DNA of 5,521 bases, taken from NCBI GenBank assembly GCA_031289995.1, contig JAITOI010000102.1:1-5521 (forward strand), in the 5' to 3' direction. Positions 860 to 5,521 of the stretch are shown here, in pieces. The translations under genes and the position numbers were made by a program. The notes under the pieces were generated by a model. The model did not search any database. It worked only from the letters and a program-made list of their open reading frames with translations, and was not told the DNA's origin. This DNA is from Prevotellaceae bacterium. GTDB lineage: Bacteria > Bacteroidota > Bacteroidia > Bacteroidales > UBA932. Each line of letters opens with the position of its first letter. Positions within the stretch are counted from its first letter, which is position 1.

Positions 860-1939
860 CTAAAAATTGGAAGCCTCCTTGAGCTTATTCCAATGGCACA
901 GCAGCAGCCCGCCGTTTTCGTCGTGCAGGTGCATGCCGTTGCCCTCGCAGTAGCGGAAGTATTTGCACGCGGCGCACTCGCCCGTGTGCGCCCACGCGCG
1001 GTTACGGAACGGCTCGTAGCGCGTGTTCCAAACGGTCATAAAATCATCCTTGTAGATGTTGCCCTGAATGAAGTTGGCGCGCAGGTTGGGGCACGCAGAA
1101 ATGCTGCCGTCTGCCAGCACCGACCCGATGTTGATGCCCGCGCGGCAGAAGAAAAAGTTGTCGCGCACCTTGCCCTCGTAATCGCCCAGAAAGCCCTCGC
1201 AGCCGTAGCTTGCGTGAATAAGCCCCTCCCTGCGCGTGTCGCTGATGAAGTCAAACAGCTGGCGAAGCTGCGTGGGCGGCAGCTGTAGCTCCTTGTCCTG
1301 CGCCGCCCGCCCAATGGGGAAAATGGTGAAGATGCGCCACTGCCTGACACCCATGTCGATGAGCAACTTTTTCACGGCGGGCAGCTCGTGAAACGTGCGG
1401 GCGCTGACGCAGGTAACCACGTCAAACGCAAGCTCGTGCTGGGGTTGCGACAGCAGAGCAATGGCGTTGCAGGCGCTGCGAAAGCTCTGAGGGTTGCCGC
1501 GCATCGCATTGTGGGTGGGTTCCAAGCCGTCCAAGCTGACGGTGGCAGCCCGCAAGCCCGCGCCAAGCAAGCGGCGGGCGCGGTCGGGCGTGAGGGCAAG
1601 CCCGTTGGTGACCATTCCCCAGGGAAATTCGCGGCGGTAGAGCTCGTGCCCGCACTGCTCGAGATCGTTGCGCAGCAAGGGTTCGCCGCCGGTGATGACA
1701 ATCATTGTGCGGTGCGGGTTCACGTGCGGACGGATATTGTCCACCACGCGCAGAAAATCGGCGAGCGGCATATCCTTTTGCCGCGCGTCGCGCCGGCAGT
1801 CGCTGCCGCAGTGCCGGCACGCGAGATTGCAGCGCAGCGTGCACTCCCACATCAGGTAGCGCAGCGGATGCGTCGCCGTCTCAACCTTGCGAAACCGCCG
1901 GTACAGCTCCAAACCCAAACGTTTGCGGAGGGATAACAT
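860..1939 (-). CDS. Radical SAM/SPASM enzyme of the rSAM/lipoprotein system (TIGR04133-like)
   Basis: A 359-residue enzyme expected to reductively cleave S-adenosylmethionine and perform radical chemistry on a peptide or protein. C37, C41 and C44 form the CxxxCxxC [4Fe-4S] motif, flanked by C33 and C48 (WECTLRC...HCGSDC). ITGGEPL at 82-88 is the SAM-binding GGE motif. The C-terminal SPASM region carries C265, C283, C322, C325, C331 and C348; spacing C-x12-G-x4-C then CxxCx5C matches SPASM, but G335 sits where a further Cys is usual. There is no signal peptide, so it acts in the cytosol. I chose ATG 1939-1937: the frame extends upstream to 2131, but that part overlaps the lipoprotein gene and its translation is unlike the family. 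The start lies 10 nt after the lipoprotein stop, so the pair is probably co-translated. I recall the family as TIGR04133 (rSAM/lipoprotein system), a name given from memory. Its substrate is unknown to me; the adjacent lipoprotein is the natural candidate. Confidence 0.9.
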   Translation of the reverse strand: MLSLRKRLGLELYRRFRKVETATHPLRYLMWECTLRCNLACRHCGSDCRRDARQKDMPLADFLRVVDNIRPHVNPHRTMIVITGGEPLLRNDLEQCGHELYRREFPWGMVTNGLALTPDRARRLLGAGLRAATVSLDGLEPTHNAMRGNPQSFRSACNAIALLSQPQHELAFDVVTCVSARTFHELPAVKKLLIDMGVRQWRIFTIFPIGRAAQDKELQLPPTQLRQLFDFISDTRREGLIHASYGCEGFLGDYEGKVRDNFFFCRAGINIGSVLADGSISACPNLRANFIQGNIYKDDFMTVWNTRYEPFRNRAWAHTGECAACKYFRYCEGNGMHLHDENGGLLLCHWNKLKEASNF

Positions 1940-1949
1940 ATCGTTGAAA

Positions 1950-2480
1950 TTATTGCTGAGGCTCCAATTCCACCGTGCCCAAATCCCACGTCGCTTCGCC
2001 TGCGTACCAATTGCCGCTGCCGTTTTGCAGCTGCGAACGTGAAATGGTAGCGGTGTCCTGCCTCGCGGCGAAGAACCCGCCGTTGTCGATGCTGTCCGTA
2101 TCTTCAAAGGTAACGCGGAATTTCGCATCATTGTTGGGGAAACCGTCTATCTGCATATCAAACGCTCCGGCGGTGTCGGTGCGGGATTCTGTGCGGCTGT
2201 AGGAGTTGTAAACGGTAGTGTCCTTATGGTCGGTAGCCGTGAGGTAGGTCGTTCCCTGCTCGGCGAAAACGCTAATTCCCGCAATGGGCTGACGGGTAGC
2301 GCGTGCCACCACTTTGCCCTTTATTTTGTAGATCGCTGACGGCGTGCCGTATTCAGTACCGTATTCAGCCGACGGCGTACCGTATTCATCTTTTCCGTCA
2401 GTGTCGCACGCTGCAAACCCCAGCATGACTAACAATGCGGATAAAAGCTTGGTGTAAACGAAAGATAGCTTTGCTTTCAT
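1950..2480 (-). CDS. Radical SAM-associated lipoprotein with EYGTPSA repeats (TIGR04134-like)
   Basis: A 176-residue predicted lipoprotein. Lys2, Lys4 and Lys11 precede a hydrophobic segment (12-22) and a lipobox ending in FAAC, with C25 as the acylated residue. The mature N-terminus CDTDGKDE is acidic, resembling lipoprotein export signals of Bacteroidota surface lipoproteins, so surface display is plausible but inferred. Residues 32-49 are a tandem repeat: EYGTPSA, EYGT, EYGTPSA. From about 51 to 130 there is a carboxypeptidase-regulatory-like beta-sandwich pattern (KGKV...RQPIAGISV, TDTAGAFDM, FRVTFEDTDSIDNGG). The tail (157-172) contains WYAGEATWDLGTVEL. C25 is the only cysteine. It is first in an operon with the radical SAM enzyme and has its own promoter at 2499-2506. 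The YG-x-P segment just after the lipid anchor, followed by Y-x-x-K-G-K-V, is the hallmark I associate with TIGR04134 (from memory). Function is unknown; a likely modification substrate or partner of the enzyme. Confidence 0.87.
   Translation of the reverse strand: MKAKLSFVYTKLLSALLVMLGFAACDTDGKDEYGTPSAEYGTEYGTPSAIYKIKGKVVARATRQPIAGISVFAEQGTTYLTATDHKDTTVYNSYSRTESRTDTAGAFDMQIDGFPNNDAKFRVTFEDTDSIDNGGFFAARQDTATISRSQLQNGSGNWYAGEATWDLGTVELEPQQ
2334..2387 (-). repeat. In-frame tandem repeat encoding EYGTPSA-EYGT-EYGTPSA
   Basis: Read on the minus strand, a 21-base unit beginning GAATACGGTACGCCGTC is followed by a 12-base partial unit (GAATACGGTACT) and a second 21-base unit that differs from the first only at third codon positions. 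All units are multiples of three, so copy number could change without a frameshift. The repeat begins seven residues after the lipidated cysteine of the lipoprotein, a flexible and exposed position. Confidence 0.85.
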
Positions 2481-2498: not shown

Positions 2499-2506
2499 CA
2501 AAGATA
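2499..2506 (-). promoter_or_regulatory. -7 promoter element of the lipoprotein/radical SAM operon
   Basis: The minus strand reads TATCTTTG, an exact TAnnTTTG match and the same octamer as at 809-816. It lies 18 bases before the lipoprotein ATG (2480), implying a leader of only about 10-15 nt. An upstream TTG (in AATTGAGC) is 15 bases away, shorter than the usual -33 spacing, so the -33 element is uncertain. Confidence 0.6.
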
Positions 2507-2603: not shown

Positions 2604-3125
2604 ATGGATACTTTTGCGCAACTTTTAATAGCCATGCTGGCGTCGGGGCTGATGCTGGGGGGCGCGACCTACTTGGTGCTGCGCAAGCTGCTGGATGCCG
2701 AGCGCTACCGCCGCAACGTGGAGCTGCTCAGCGCAACGAAGGACATCACCCTGCCGCTGCGCCTACAGGCGCACGAGCGCCTGCTGCTGATGCTGGAGCG
2801 CATCTCGCCGGAGGCGCTGGTGCTGCGCCTGCGCCGCCCCAACACCACCAACGCTGCGCTGCACGGCGAGCTGGTGGCGGCGGTGCGCTCGGAGTTCGAG
2901 CACAACCTCTCGCAGCAGATGTACACCTCCGGCGGCCTGTGGAGCGCCATCTGCGTGGCCAAAAACGGCCTTATTTCGGCCATCAACAGCTGCGCCACGG
3001 ACACCGAGCCGGGCAACAGCTCAATGCAGCTGGCGCAAAGGCTGCTGGAGTGGCACGTGAACAACGAGCTGCCCACCGCCGCCGCCATCCGGCAGCTGAA
3101 GGAGGAGGTGGCGCGGCTGTTTTAA
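2604..3125 (+). CDS. Small membrane-anchored conserved protein, DUF7935-like
   Basis: A 173-residue protein of unknown function. Residues 4-26 form one hydrophobic segment (QLLIAMLASGLMLGGATYLVL), followed by basic residues (R27, K28, R34, R36, R37), so the protein is probably an inner-membrane anchor with a cytosolic helical domain. The core LPLRLQAHERLLLMLERISP (50-69), an FEHNLSQQMY segment (98-107) and the terminal LKEEVARLF resemble a family widespread in Bacteroidota that I recall as DUF7935. The length fits that family. I start at ATG 2604 because it places the membrane segment at the N-terminus and follows a promoter element; the in-frame ATG at 2547 adds 19 residues that do not look like part of the family. 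It is divergent from the lipoprotein operon and convergent with the HTH gene, with 21 bases between the two stop codons, so it is probably monocistronic. Nothing visible ties it to its neighbours. Confidence 0.78.
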   Translation: MDTFAQLLIAMLASGLMLGGATYLVLRKLLDAERYRRNVELLSATKDITLPLRLQAHERLLLMLERISPEALVLRLRRPNTTNAALHGELVAAVRSEFEHNLSQQMYTSGGLWSAICVAKNGLISAINSCATDTEPGNSSMQLAQRLLEWHVNNELPTAAAIRQLKEEVARLF

Positions 3126-3146: not shown

Positions 3147-3593
3147 CTATCGGTATCTTTTTCGGTATTTTTGCTTATAATTTTTGAAACAAATTGGTTG
3201 AGAAACAATTTCTATACCGTTATTGTTCAAAATTTGTTTTATTAGTTCTTCTGTACAATCAAATTGGATGGCCAAATCAGAAACTGAAACTCCTCCTTTA
3301 AGATAACGTTCTTGAACGCTTTTTTTTTCAGGCTCTGCCAACCGTTTTGATTGTTCTTGTATTTTATTTTGTGGGATATTAATAGATGTAAGGGCATGAT
3401 AATCATTTAAGGTTTTGATAATATCGCTTAAAACAGAAGGGTTAATTTTTATTTCTTGTTTATGTTCAAATTGTTCACCGTGAATTTTTTGTATAATGCG
3501 TACATATTGGTTCCTACCATTATACTCTACAAGGTCAATGAGAAAGGTGCTTTTCTCATATTCAAGCAATTTTGTTTTAAGAATGACTCCCAT
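3147..3593 (-). CDS. Probable DNA-binding protein: PC4-like N-terminal domain plus C-terminal HTH
   Basis: A 148-residue protein that I do not recognise with certainty. Residues 1-66 show alternating strands and a final helix (STFLIDLVEYN, QYVRIIQKI, QEIKINPSVLSDIIKTLNDY), a pattern reminiscent of PC4-like single-stranded nucleic-acid-binding domains; this is inference. After a charged linker (about 76-92), residues 93-128 (SVQERYLKGGVSVSDLAIQF, then TEELIKQILNNNGIEI) look like a helix-turn-helix of the resolvase/sigma-70 region 4 type. The C-terminus is strongly basic (KNYKQKYRKRYR). Role inferred: transcriptional regulator or nucleoid-type protein. The start ATG 3593-3591 follows an A-rich leader lacking a Shine-Dalgarno. 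It begins 21 bases after the AEC transporter stop, on the same strand, so read-through is possible. The gene is strikingly AT-rich against GC-rich neighbours, suggesting separate acquisition. A run of nine A residues separates the two domains. Confidence 0.7.
   Translation of the reverse strand: MGVILKTKLLEYEKSTFLIDLVEYNGRNQYVRIIQKIHGEQFEHKQEIKINPSVLSDIIKTLNDYHALTSINIPQNKIQEQSKRLAEPEKKSVQERYLKGGVSVSDLAIQFDCTEELIKQILNNNGIEIVSQPICFKNYKQKYRKRYR
3320..3328 (-). repeat. Homopolymer A9 tract inside the HTH gene
   Basis: On the coding (minus) strand codons 89-92 read GAA AAA AAA AGC, giving nine consecutive A. Insertion or loss of one A would end translation before the helix-turn-helix: +1 A gives KRSRTLS then a stop, -1 A gives about 24 altered residues then a stop. 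The tract could be slippage-prone or phase-variable, though nine A in an AT-rich gene can also arise by chance. Confidence 0.8.
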
Positions 3594-3614: not shown

Positions 3615-4553
3615 CTATATATTTTTGCAATTTTCGCTAAAAACCGCCTGTAGCACGAAGTACCACAGCGTGGAGGTGAAGAACCCCACCACGATGCCCA
3701 GCCCCACCACCAGCGAGCAGTAGCGCGGGCTGAGGTTGCTTTGGCTCACCAGCAGGCTCGCGGTGATGTGCGACGACATGCCGGCCTCGAACACGCTTAT
3801 TTTGGCCAGCGTGCCGCCCGACTGCATCAGCAGCGCCAGCGCCAGCACGAGGCAGGGCGCCAGCAGCAGCTTGTAGAAGATGCCCACCGTGAGCAGCCGC
3901 CACTCCCGCTTTATCTCCCCCAGCCGCAGCTGTAGCCCAATGGAGAACAGCGCCATGGGCGACATCGTGGCGATGAGCTTCTCCAGCAAGGGCGTGGCCG
4001 CAGATATGTCCGCAAAGCGCGGCAGTGTCAGGGCTACCATGCAGGCGATGAAGGGCGGAAAGCGCAGTATTTTTTTGAAGATGAAGAGAAAGTTGGCGGT
4101 GCCGCTGCTGCTCTTGGCCGACGAGGCGCGCAGCACCGTGGCCACGCCGATGGTGGCAAAGATGATGAACGTTACCTGGTCGAACACCACGGCGTGGCTG
4201 ATGGCGGCCTCGCCGTAGAAGGCCGAAATCATGGGGAAGCCCAGAAAGGCCGTGTTGCCCAGCCCGCAGATGACGAACAGCGCCGTGCGCGAGGCCGGCA
4301 GCAGGCGCCGCCGGTAGTCGTAGGCGCTGACAAACACCCACGCGCCGCCCCACACCAGCAGGGGGCCAAGCGCGGGCAGCAGCAGCGCCGTGCTCCACTG
4401 TATGGCGGGCACAAACCGCAGCGCCAGCGCCGGCAGCGCCACGTACAGCACCCATGCGTTAACACTCTTGTACGCATCGGCAGGCAAAAGCTTCAGGCGC
4501 GAAAGCAGCACCCCCACGCCGACGCAAAAAACGATGAGGATAAAGTTAAGCAT
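3615..4553 (-). CDS. AEC-family (auxin efflux carrier-like) membrane transporter
   Basis: A 312-residue integral membrane protein with about ten hydrophobic segments, the normal length and architecture for the AEC family (Pfam Mem_trans), which exports or imports small organic anions such as carboxylates or amino acid derivatives. Diagnostic stretches are NAWVLYVALPALALRF (32-47), GLGNTAFLGFPMISAFYGE (97-115), MSPMALFSIGLQL (197-209) and FEAGMSSHITASLLVSQSN (255-273), which fit the two crossover motifs of the five-plus-five helix fold. A polar loop (about 142-152) separates the halves. The start ATG lies one base after the TGA of the upstream MFS gene (TGAAATG), with a purine-rich GAAGGG just before it, so translation is almost certainly coupled. 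No ligand can be assigned from sequence; family membership is secure. Confidence 0.9.
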   Translation of the reverse strand: MLNFILIVFCVGVGVLLSRLKLLPADAYKSVNAWVLYVALPALALRFVPAIQWSTALLLPALGPLLVWGGAWVFVSAYDYRRRLLPASRTALFVICGLGNTAFLGFPMISAFYGEAAISHAVVFDQVTFIIFATIGVATVLRASSAKSSSGTANFLFIFKKILRFPPFIACMVALTLPRFADISAATPLLEKLIATMSPMALFSIGLQLRLGEIKREWRLLTVGIFYKLLLAPCLVLALALLMQSGGTLAKISVFEAGMSSHITASLLVSQSNLSPRYCSLVVGLGIVVGFFTSTLWYFVLQAVFSENCKNI

Positions 4554-4554
4554 T

Positions 4555-5521
4555 TCACCCTTCGGTTTTATTCGGGTGCTCCAGCCCGTAGCCCTTCCGC
4601 TTGTCCTCGCGCTTGAGCAGCAGGGCTACGCCGACGGAGAGGACGGCAAAGCCCGTAAAAATCAGCATCGGCAGCGTGTAGTTGTAGGTGGCCACGCCCT
4701 GCGGCGAAACGGTTTTGCACCACCTGTCGAGCACCACGCCCACCAGCAGCGGCACGAGCATCAGCCCGATGTTCTGCACCCAAAAAATGAGCGCGTAGGC
4801 GGTGCCCAGCTGCTTTTCGGGGATGATTTTGGGCACCGACGGCCACATGGCCGACGGCACCAGCGAAAAGGCAACACCCAGCGCCACCATGAGGCTTACG
4901 GCGAACACCCAGCTGCTGATGGCGGGCAGCGAAAACAGCGCGTGGATGACCACCAGCATGAGCGCACCGGTAATCATGATGGTGGCGCCCCGACCCTTTT
5001 TGTCGTAGATGCCGCCAAAAAGCGGGGTGAGCAGGATGGTGCCGAAGGGCAGCAGCCCCGCGATGGCGCCGGCCCACTCCTCGTCCACGCCAAACTTGTT
5101 GGTCATCAGGTCGGCGGCGTACTTCAGGAACGGGAAAACGCAGGAGTAGAACAGCACGCAGAGGAAGGCGATGAGCCAAAAGCCGTGGTTGGTCAGCACC
5201 AGCTTCACGTCGGAGAGCTTAAACTCATCCTCGGCGGCAGCGGCGGTGGCCGCCAGCCCGCTTTCCCTGTCCAGCTTCTTGTCCAGCAGCCGGTAGATGA
5301 GGAAGCACAGCAGCCCCACGACGAGCAGCGCCAGCCCGAACAGCACGGAGCAGGAAACGCCGCCGAAGTACTTGGCAAGCGGGTTGGCAAACATCAGCGC
5401 AAAGGCCGTTCCGATGCGCGCCACCGCCACCTGCAAGCCCATTGCCAGCGCCATTTCGCGCCCCTTGAACCACTTCACGATGGTTTTGGTGATGGTGATG
5501 CCGGCCACCTCTGCCCCCACG
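4555..5521 (-). CDS. MFS transporter, MFSD1-like (5' end outside the window)
   Basis: The frame runs from the right edge to TGA 4557-4555; 321 complete codons are visible. The first codon, GTG, sits in the middle of a conserved region and is not taken as a start, so roughly the first 100-130 residues (about three to four helices) are missing. Numbering from the edge, WFKGREMALAMGLQVAVARIG (17-37) closely resembles the WFKGKE...GLQ...AR-G segment of the MFSD1 family. Also similar are FLCVLFYSCVFPF (119-131), the motif A-like GGIYDKKGRG (169-178), and PSAMWPSVPKIIPEKQLGTA (222-241) followed by a QNIGL segment (249-253). A polar loop at about 80-104 joins the two halves. Animal MFSD1 is a lysosomal dipeptide carrier; transfer of that function to this bacterial protein is inference. 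The gene leads a cluster with the AEC transporter and perhaps the HTH gene. Confidence 0.87.
   Translation of the reverse strand, partial: VGAEVAGITITKTIVKWFKGREMALAMGLQVAVARIGTAFALMFANPLAKYFGGVSCSVLFGLALLVVGLLCFLIYRLLDKKLDRESGLAATAAAAEDEFKLSDVKLVLTNHGFWLIAFLCVLFYSCVFPFLKYAADLMTNKFGVDEEWAGAIAGLLPFGTILLTPLFGGIYDKKGRGATIMITGALMLVVIHALFSLPAISSWVFAVSLMVALGVAFSLVPSAMWPSVPKIIPEKQLGTAYALIFWVQNIGLMLVPLLVGVVLDRWCKTVSPQGVATYNYTLPMLIFTGFAVLSVGVALLLKREDKRKGYGLEHPNKTEG

Follow-up and report, generated by a model that had tools for sequence, protein, structure and literature searches.

A lipoprotein-associated radical SAM enzyme of a Prevotellaceae bacterium as a candidate tyramine splicease

The splicease PlpXY, with its spliceotides in Pleurocapsa PCC 7319, was reportedly described by Morinaka in 2018 and is a close known parallel to the subject of this analysis: a radical S-adenosylmethionine (SAM) enzyme and a lipoprotein encoded side by side in a 5,521-nucleotide contig of a Prevotellaceae bacterium (GenBank JAITOI010000102.1, assembly GCA_031289995.1), the whole of which is called the window below. 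According to published accounts, PlpXY excises tyramine at X-Tyr-Gly (XYG) sites, the natural ones being MYG and LYG (PMC10533398), several splice events are possible in one plp precursor (PMC10533398, PMC10373908, PMC11002830), and PlpX is listed as IPR026482 (PMC11002830). The mycofactocin maturase MftC, for its part, is described as carrying out the oxidative decarboxylation of a Tyr and joining it to the adjacent Val (PMC8326336).

In hmmscan, each of the two window proteins scores above the curated cut-off of an NCBIfam family (Table 1), so the pair is one already catalogued, as TIGR04133 (rSAM_w_lipo) and TIGR04134 (lipo_with_rSAM), which is the identity that a preliminary description, made from the sequence alone, had named. 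That description had also placed the two genes correctly, without overlap and with exactly 10 nt (TTTCAACGAT) from the TAA of the lipoprotein gene to the ATG of the enzyme gene, and the lipobox (GFAAC, with Cys25), the CxxxCxxC motif and the SPASM cysteines that it listed are all present, the Pfam scores for Radical_SAM (61.9 bits) and for SPASM (30.1 bits) both exceeding the cut-off. Its statement that no chemistry is assigned was too pessimistic, because tyramine splicing is suggested both by the motif in the partner and by the family to which the enzyme comes nearest. Judging by analogy, the enzyme is probably a splicease-like editor of the peptide backbone, acting on XYG sites in the tether of the lipoprotein.

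In the proposed mechanism, the enzyme would work in the cytosol on the unexported precursor, before Sec export and lipidation, and would recognise the signal peptide through its LGF element, perhaps together with the folded domain, in place of the partner PlpY with its RiPP recognition element (RRE; RiPP, ribosomally synthesized and post-translationally modified peptide). A SAM-derived radical would attack the Tyr of XYG in the stretch that links the lipobox Cys to the beta-sandwich, the predicted sites being the EYG at residues 32-34 and 43-45 and perhaps that at 39-41. At each site a tyramine equivalent (C8H9NO, 135.068 Da) would be excised and the chain rejoined, so that an alpha-keto-beta-Glu (alpha-keto-beta-amino) residue would be left at each of up to three EYG sites; the spliced precursor would then be exported by Sec and lipidated, yielding a membrane-anchored protein with electrophilic ketoamides. 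Because spliceotides inhibit proteases (PMC10373908, PMC11117315), membrane-tethered protease inhibition would be the likeliest use, and with low confidence the product may be pictured as a tethered serine or cysteine protease inhibitor with Glu or Met at X. All three predicted sites fall in one tryptic peptide, DEYGTPSAEYGTEYGTPSAIYK, with a computed mass of 2398.049 Da, from which 135.068 would be lost per predicted event (C8H9NO computes to 135.0684; PMC10533398 prints 135.0757).

Tyr-Gly sites in the partners of TIGR04133 enzymes

The partners were surveyed at 110 radical SAM loci, comprising L001-L080, found with peptide patterns derived from the query, and L089-L118, from genome samples; L081-L088 were excluded since their genomes were already in the set. 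Those numbered L070-L079 were retrieved by homology, and five of them, tied to genome matches G006 to G010, score 362-409 bits, below the TIGR04133 cut-off. The loci are not independent, because some sequences are present in duplicate (L020/L108, and L044/L107 as judged from the lipoprotein). A script with a looser signal-peptide rule found a signal-bearing XYG open reading frame (ORF) within 1.2 kb of the enzyme at 104 of the 110 loci, a stricter first script having found XYG at 89. The frame that it counted at L005 is spurious, the real upstream partner, cut by the contig end, having MYGVP; L037 (EYGSP, EYGVP) and L054 (VMYGPV), which had escaped the script on account of ORF starts set too early, were accepted by reading. 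By script and reading together, an XYG partner lies close by at 106 of the 110 loci; L109 is cut by its contig end.

The form YGxP beside the enzyme is highly specific: it occurs in 128 of the 217 same-strand signal-bearing ORFs within 1.2 kb, as against 5/132 on the opposite strand and 3/430 distant controls in the same loci (Fisher p 3e-71 for near versus distant, the loci being related and not independent). Plain XYG is only moderately specific, because it also occurs in control ORFs (21/146 with a lipobox, 52/430 with a signal) and in composition shuffles of the partners (at least one XYG in 46.9 +/- 5.2 of 157). The 157 unique partners hold 246 sites in all, where X is Glu at 88, Met at 75, Leu at 15, Lys at 14, Val at 12 and Ala at 11, with Pro two positions after the Gly at 160; one site is carried by 94 partners, two by 45, three by 13, four by 2 and five by 3. 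Some of the counted neighbours and listed short partners are spurious frames.

A good number of these partners are lipoproteins of about 60-125 residues, too short for the beta-sandwich domain, in which XYG is nonetheless kept (e.g., L001, ending KLMYGVPPVHYEIKDTDIKKE, or L039 and L056, whose short proteins hold three MYG apiece). The earlier contrast between a modified lipoprotein and a small RiPP precursor is therefore partly wrong, given these short partners. In three proteins (L114, L116, L145) a signal without lipobox is followed by Ala-Gln-Tyr-Gly at the expected cleavage point, which fits the rule that cleavage by signal peptidase I in Bacteroidetes leaves a Gln at the N-terminus (PMC5837995). 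Tyr-Gly, retained in proteins so unlike one another, is the natural candidate for the modified site.

Further types of partner were noted. Two acidic secreted proteins beside TIGR04133-like enzymes, with five XYG (L075:5474-5968) and three (L077:1863-2225), resemble multi-core precursors, and the partners at L101, L104, L106, L113 and L117 are lipoproteins with a charged stretch, coiled-coil-looking by eye, and a single V/L-YG-S/T-P.

In a 37-row alignment of lipoprotein partners, Y44 and G45 are invariant in all rows, as is G21 of the signal peptide, and P47 is found in at least 90%. It might be argued that YGxP is merely a structural or sorting element and that the target of the enzyme is a different residue of the partner, or some third molecule, the more so as domain-bearing partners also conserve G55, V57 and G105 (invariant) and A49, T101, D129, W158, G161 and L172 (nearly so). 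This seems improbable to us, given the short domain-less partners that keep XYG, the scarcity of YGxP among the control signal ORFs of the same loci, and the differently built XYG proteins that flank TIGR04103-like enzymes at 19 of 20 loci (next section). Two other targets were rejected: anSME-like oxidation of Ser or Cys, there being no Ser, and no Cys beyond the lipobox, among the invariant and nearly invariant columns of the alignment; and modification of the beta-sandwich domain, which many partners lack.

The motif LG[FIVLYW] stands just before the lipobox in 80 of 110 YGxP lipoproteins versus 6/146 distant lipobox ORFs and 1/73 other near ones, shuffled h-regions yielding it in 26/110. 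This pattern suggests that the lipoprotein signal peptide may double as the leader for the enzyme through LGF; alternatively, the partners may share the element by common descent. In the AlphaFold2 (AF2) model, the mean predicted local distance difference test score (pLDDT) of the tether is 65 for residues 21-30, 59 for 31-40 and 83 for 41-50, and it is this low-confidence, flexible-looking tether that carries the EYG sites. A Foldseek search with the model gave weak transthyretin, CnaB and dioxygenase-type sandwiches, with TM-scores (TMq) of at most 0.42 among the 50 matches listed. As regards the putative surface location named in the preliminary description, the mature N-terminus, C-DTDGKDE, is acidic with K at +6 and does not fit the published surface export signal of Bacteroidota lipoproteins, C-X-K-(D/E)2-X (PMC5080379).

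The enzyme and its TIGR04103-type relatives

Beyond its own family, the enzyme scores best against TIGR04103 (nif11-class rSAM maturase 3, 139.2 bits). TIGR04133 and TIGR04103 have in common the columns G45, A212, G249, G252, E255 and I280, none of which is found in more than one of the six outgroup rows. The signature GxxGx[YFH]ExxxR is found in 101 of the 110 survey enzymes, 21/21 of TIGR04103 type and 2/2 GDL-motif enzymes; in the comparison sets it turns up in 1/6 outgroup rows, 1/16 other radical SAM controls (chosen low-scoring matches, 11 of them with a SPASM-like CxxCx5C) and 0/2 MftC. The enzyme has six SPASM-region cysteines (C265, C283, C322, C325, C331 and C348), Gly335 occupying the usual fourth-Cys position of CX2CX5CX3C, which we take to be the SPASM layout; C247 is an extra conserved cysteine, present in 29 of 35 rows.

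The neighbours of TIGR04103-type enzymes carry the same core. On a Nostoc plasmid (C057), a TIGR04103 enzyme (853 bits) follows a Nif11 precursor that ends in AGGRGSIALYGLPPELF (LYGLPPELF), and after the enzyme comes a 71-residue ORF. Twenty further TIGR04103-like loci, from the phylum of G010 and with enzymes of 497-687 bits, were read; at 19 a small XYG protein lies on the strand of the enzyme, the exception being a short contig (L168) with no XYG protein beside it, so that XYG proteins occur at 20 of 21 loci including Nostoc. Peptides at L155-L157 end in PLYGVVSDP, MPLYGVPMPAEL or MPMYGIPLPTEL. The XYG(xP) core thus recurs with both enzyme families, being found beside TIGR04133 and TIGR04103-type enzymes alike.

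At 16 of these loci (L158-L167, L169-L174) the proteins have a CxxC...CPFC element with one to four XYG, sometimes encoded by two or three genes in a row, and are candidates for another type of spliced protein. In genome G009, a TIGR04103-like enzyme (P0137, L197:2664-4685) continues at its C-terminus into a fused Cys-rich array of eight XYG (among them EYGVE and DYGILPPE), apparently carrying its own substrate repeats.

That the Tyr-Gly site is recognised while its tyramine is kept, the enzyme performing other radical chemistry there (a C-C or C-O cross-link, epimerisation, dehydrogenation or MftC-like oxidation), is a rival that we regard as unlikely, though it must be taken seriously: the TIGR04133 clade is separate from TIGR04103, the scores against TIGR04053 and AhbD come within about 15 bits of that against TIGR04103, and the relative MftC also works on Tyr (PMC8326336). 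What argues for tyramine splicing instead is that XYG(x)P is common to the proteins beside TIGR04103-type enzymes and that GxxGxYExxxR is common to those enzymes and absent from the two MftC tested.

A number of observations nevertheless weigh against splicing by the window enzyme. The TIGR04103 score lies far below the cut-off of 725, so that the enzyme is not a member, and is little above those for TIGR04053 (133 bits) and AhbD (125 bits); the 20 further TIGR04103-like enzymes all stay below this cut-off as well. In a 55-row tree, in which the window enzyme stands with those of 32 of the 110 survey loci, of L150 and L151, and with 12 of the 21 TIGR04103-type enzymes, the 35 TIGR04133-type rows form one clade (100/100, stem 2.08) that falls outside the TIGR04103/GDL group (99/99). 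Membership of the PlpX family is ruled out by the tree and the cut-off, and because of the separate clade the enzyme is described here as working like PlpX. TIGR04103, in turn, is presumably the PlpX family, as the shared Nif11 context suggests. Nine survey enzymes lack the signature (L002, L007, L024, L045, L059, L064, L072, L078, L079), XYG partners occur at some of these loci (e.g., L045, L072), and control L189 has the signature (GWFGPHEHQLR) and no XYG peptide beside the enzyme. L062 has YMA in place of YG, and no partner was found at L079 or L111. The AF2 model of the enzyme (pLDDT 91.5) has only a helix (4-23) ahead of the barrel and no separate N-terminal domain, and among seven window ORFs scanned with Pfam and NCBIfam there is no match of PlpY, RRE or PqqD type, though such a gene may lie elsewhere in the genome. 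The descriptions of PlpX consulted cover MYG, LYG and an engineered GYG, and do not mention Glu, the commonest X here.

As for the signature itself, the nine survey enzymes without it and controls L189 and L191 rule it out as a perfect discriminator. In L191 the E of the signature is replaced by D (GYFGPYDSQLR), and the enzyme carries eight XYG motifs in an array fused to its C-terminal end; L192 has neither signature nor XYG neighbour; all three controls score best against TIGR04103. The enzyme model matches BlsE, SuiB, SkfB, anSME and PqqE, the search of solved structures returning distant radical SAM relatives and no named splicease.

With the preferred reading of a splicease-like enzyme, a wider one may be put forward, although more tentatively and with less than even confidence: that the spliceases which excise tyramine have a second lineage, TIGR04133, that does without an RRE and uses the lipoprotein signal peptide (LGF) as leader, and that ketoamide lipoproteins are made by a considerable part of the Bacteroidales and by scattered members of other phyla.

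The gene pair in genomes and in the window

Co-occurrence was followed in 247 Bacteroidales genomes, a sample of one order (that of G013, which holds the Muribaculaceae locus L038). TIGR04133 is above cut-off in 52 of these and found at E <=1e-80 in 55, and TIGR04134 is above cut-off in 32, of which 31 have TIGR04133 (hypergeometric p ~3e-23) and one (G533) does not. In the reverse direction the association is weaker: 24 of the 55 enzyme genomes are without an above-cut-off TIGR04134, 11 of them without a match even at E 0.001. The recurrent pairing of the preliminary description holds, then, from the lipoprotein to the enzyme and less well the other way. Seven of the 24 have a surveyed locus: at six (L038, L101, L104, L106, L113 and L117) a divergent signal-bearing XYG protein lies within 534 nt of the enzyme on the same strand, and at L111 there is none. 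TIGR04134 is above cut-off in 15 of 18 genomes chosen for a radical SAM locus, once (G843) in a 1056-residue frame, and in a phylum-wide sample TIGR04133 is found in only 2 of 296 genomes. Absences in these searches are soft, because a limited number of candidates was scored per genome.

The 24 enzyme genomes without the lipoprotein family, and G533 without the enzyme, could be taken to mean that the two genes are mere neighbours, the lipoprotein not being a substrate of the enzyme. We find this hardly credible beside the 31 of 32 TIGR04134 genomes with TIGR04133 and the 106 loci with an XYG partner close by. From the pairing and the XYG partners, the earlier proposal that the enzyme modifies the lipoprotein is probably right.

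G533 itself has no TIGR04133 match at 1e-80; its XYG partner-type protein (L145) has a C-terminal stretch resembling, by eye, a type IX sorting domain. On plasmid pTS1 of Treponema saccharophilum (L150), the pair lies beside a gene for an Mpi-type serine recombinase, which might hint at mobility.

The features of the window are collected in Table 1. The start of the enzyme gene is the ATG that fits its homologues, the mechanical ORF extending to 2131. The single promoter that the preliminary description gave to the two genes is putative. The pattern TANNTTTG, which we take to be a Bacteroidota -7-like promoter motif, does lie 18 nt upstream of the lipoprotein ATG and is absent from the 10-nt intergenic gap; the window has 9 matches versus 2.9 expected, one inside the lipoprotein gene (2105-2112) and seven at other places, and a sigma-70 scan gave no site ahead of the pair on the minus strand. 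Two window ORFs, 3-740 (246 residues) and 3147-3593 (148 residues), match nothing in Pfam or NCBIfam at E 0.01.

Table 1. Features of the window, with positions counted from its first nucleotide
Feature	Position	Strand	Evidence or remark
Radical SAM/SPASM enzyme gene	860-1939	-	359 aa; TIGR04133 member, 573.1 bits (cut-off 425)
SPASM cysteine region, C265 to C348	896-1147	-	Pfam match; alignment
Signature GFLGDYEGKVR, residues 249-259, common to TIGR04103-type enzymes	1163-1195	-	Alignment, pattern counts
Radical SAM CxxxCxxC, C37/C41/C44	1808-1831	-	Pfam match; alignment
Lipoprotein gene, proposed splice substrate	1950-2480	-	176 aa; TIGR04134 member, 99.9 bits (cut-off 39.8)
Beta-sandwich domain, residues 48-172, after tether	1965-2339	-	AF2 mean pLDDT 90.2
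Proposed main splice site 3, E43-Y44-G45 (T-P)	2346-2354	-	37-row alignment
Possible splice site 2, E39-Y40-G41	2358-2366	-	Weakest of the three, lacking Pro; homologue P0002 has EYL here
Proposed splice site 1, E32-Y33-G34 (T-P)	2379-2387	-	Sequence; XYGxP survey
Lipidated Cys25 of lipobox GFAAC	2406-2408	-	Sequence; invariant in 37/37 rows
L20-G21-F22 in signal peptide, proposed leader element	2415-2423	-	Conservation
Lipoprotein signal peptide, residues 1-24	2409-2480	-	Sequence; AF2 helix 2-24
Putative Bacteroidota -7-like promoter element TATCTTTG	2499-2506	-	Pattern match only
DUF7935 gene	2604-3125	+	157.6 bits (Pfam); divergent from pair
Two transporter-type genes	3615-4553 and 4555-5520		Pfam/NCBIfam scan of window ORFs

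Comparison with described systems

A literature search found no paper on TIGR04133/TIGR04134 by name and none on a splicease with a lipoprotein; Scott et al. 2022 (Chem), which lies outside that search and whose title is said to speak of ribosomal beta-amino acid peptides and proteins, may cover the chemistry. With the present proposal, a pair labelled hypothetical in NCBIfam, with its enzyme above cut-off in 52 of the 247 Bacteroidales genomes, gains a specific proposed chemistry. If the proposal is true, envelope proteins of gut and rumen bacteria would carry non-canonical backbones and reactive ketoamides, which standard database searches do not expect, and the family would offer spliceases that accept Glu at X, maybe without a separate RRE, of use for protein labelling.

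The likeness to PlpXY lies in a SPASM radical SAM enzyme and an X-Tyr-Gly substrate motif, of which the window lipoprotein has three, all EYG. In contrast, plp precursors have leaders of Nif11/NHLP type, whereas the window partner has a lipoprotein signal peptide and no Nif11 match; PlpX works with the RRE-like PlpY, whereas no RRE gene was recognised in the window; and the partners of TIGR04133 enzymes often have a folded domain. With TIGR04103 the window enzyme has in common G45 (HCGS), A212 and GxxGxYExxxR, and the Nostoc precursor has XYGxP; it differs in its far-below-cut-off score, its separate clade and its type of partner. The GDL-motif enzymes of TIGR03913, which occur with DUF1843 peptides, have the signature in both cases seen, and of five such peptides annotated at two loci three were translated, two containing XYG and one LYA. 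MftC is likewise a SPASM radical SAM enzyme and acts on Tyr, but unlike the window enzyme it is without the signature. From TIGR04133/TIGR04134, hypothetical equivalogs in NCBIfam, the window pair shows no essential difference, being adjacent and in identical order and strand as in the records of Treponema saccharophilum and Parabacteroides distasonis (NZ_OY725757.1); its lipoprotein has three EYG, whereas a single XYG is the rule in 94 of the 157 partners surveyed. What was already known is thus this pair; what would be new, if the proposal is right, is that a reaction described before is also carried out by another enzyme family, and on lipoproteins.

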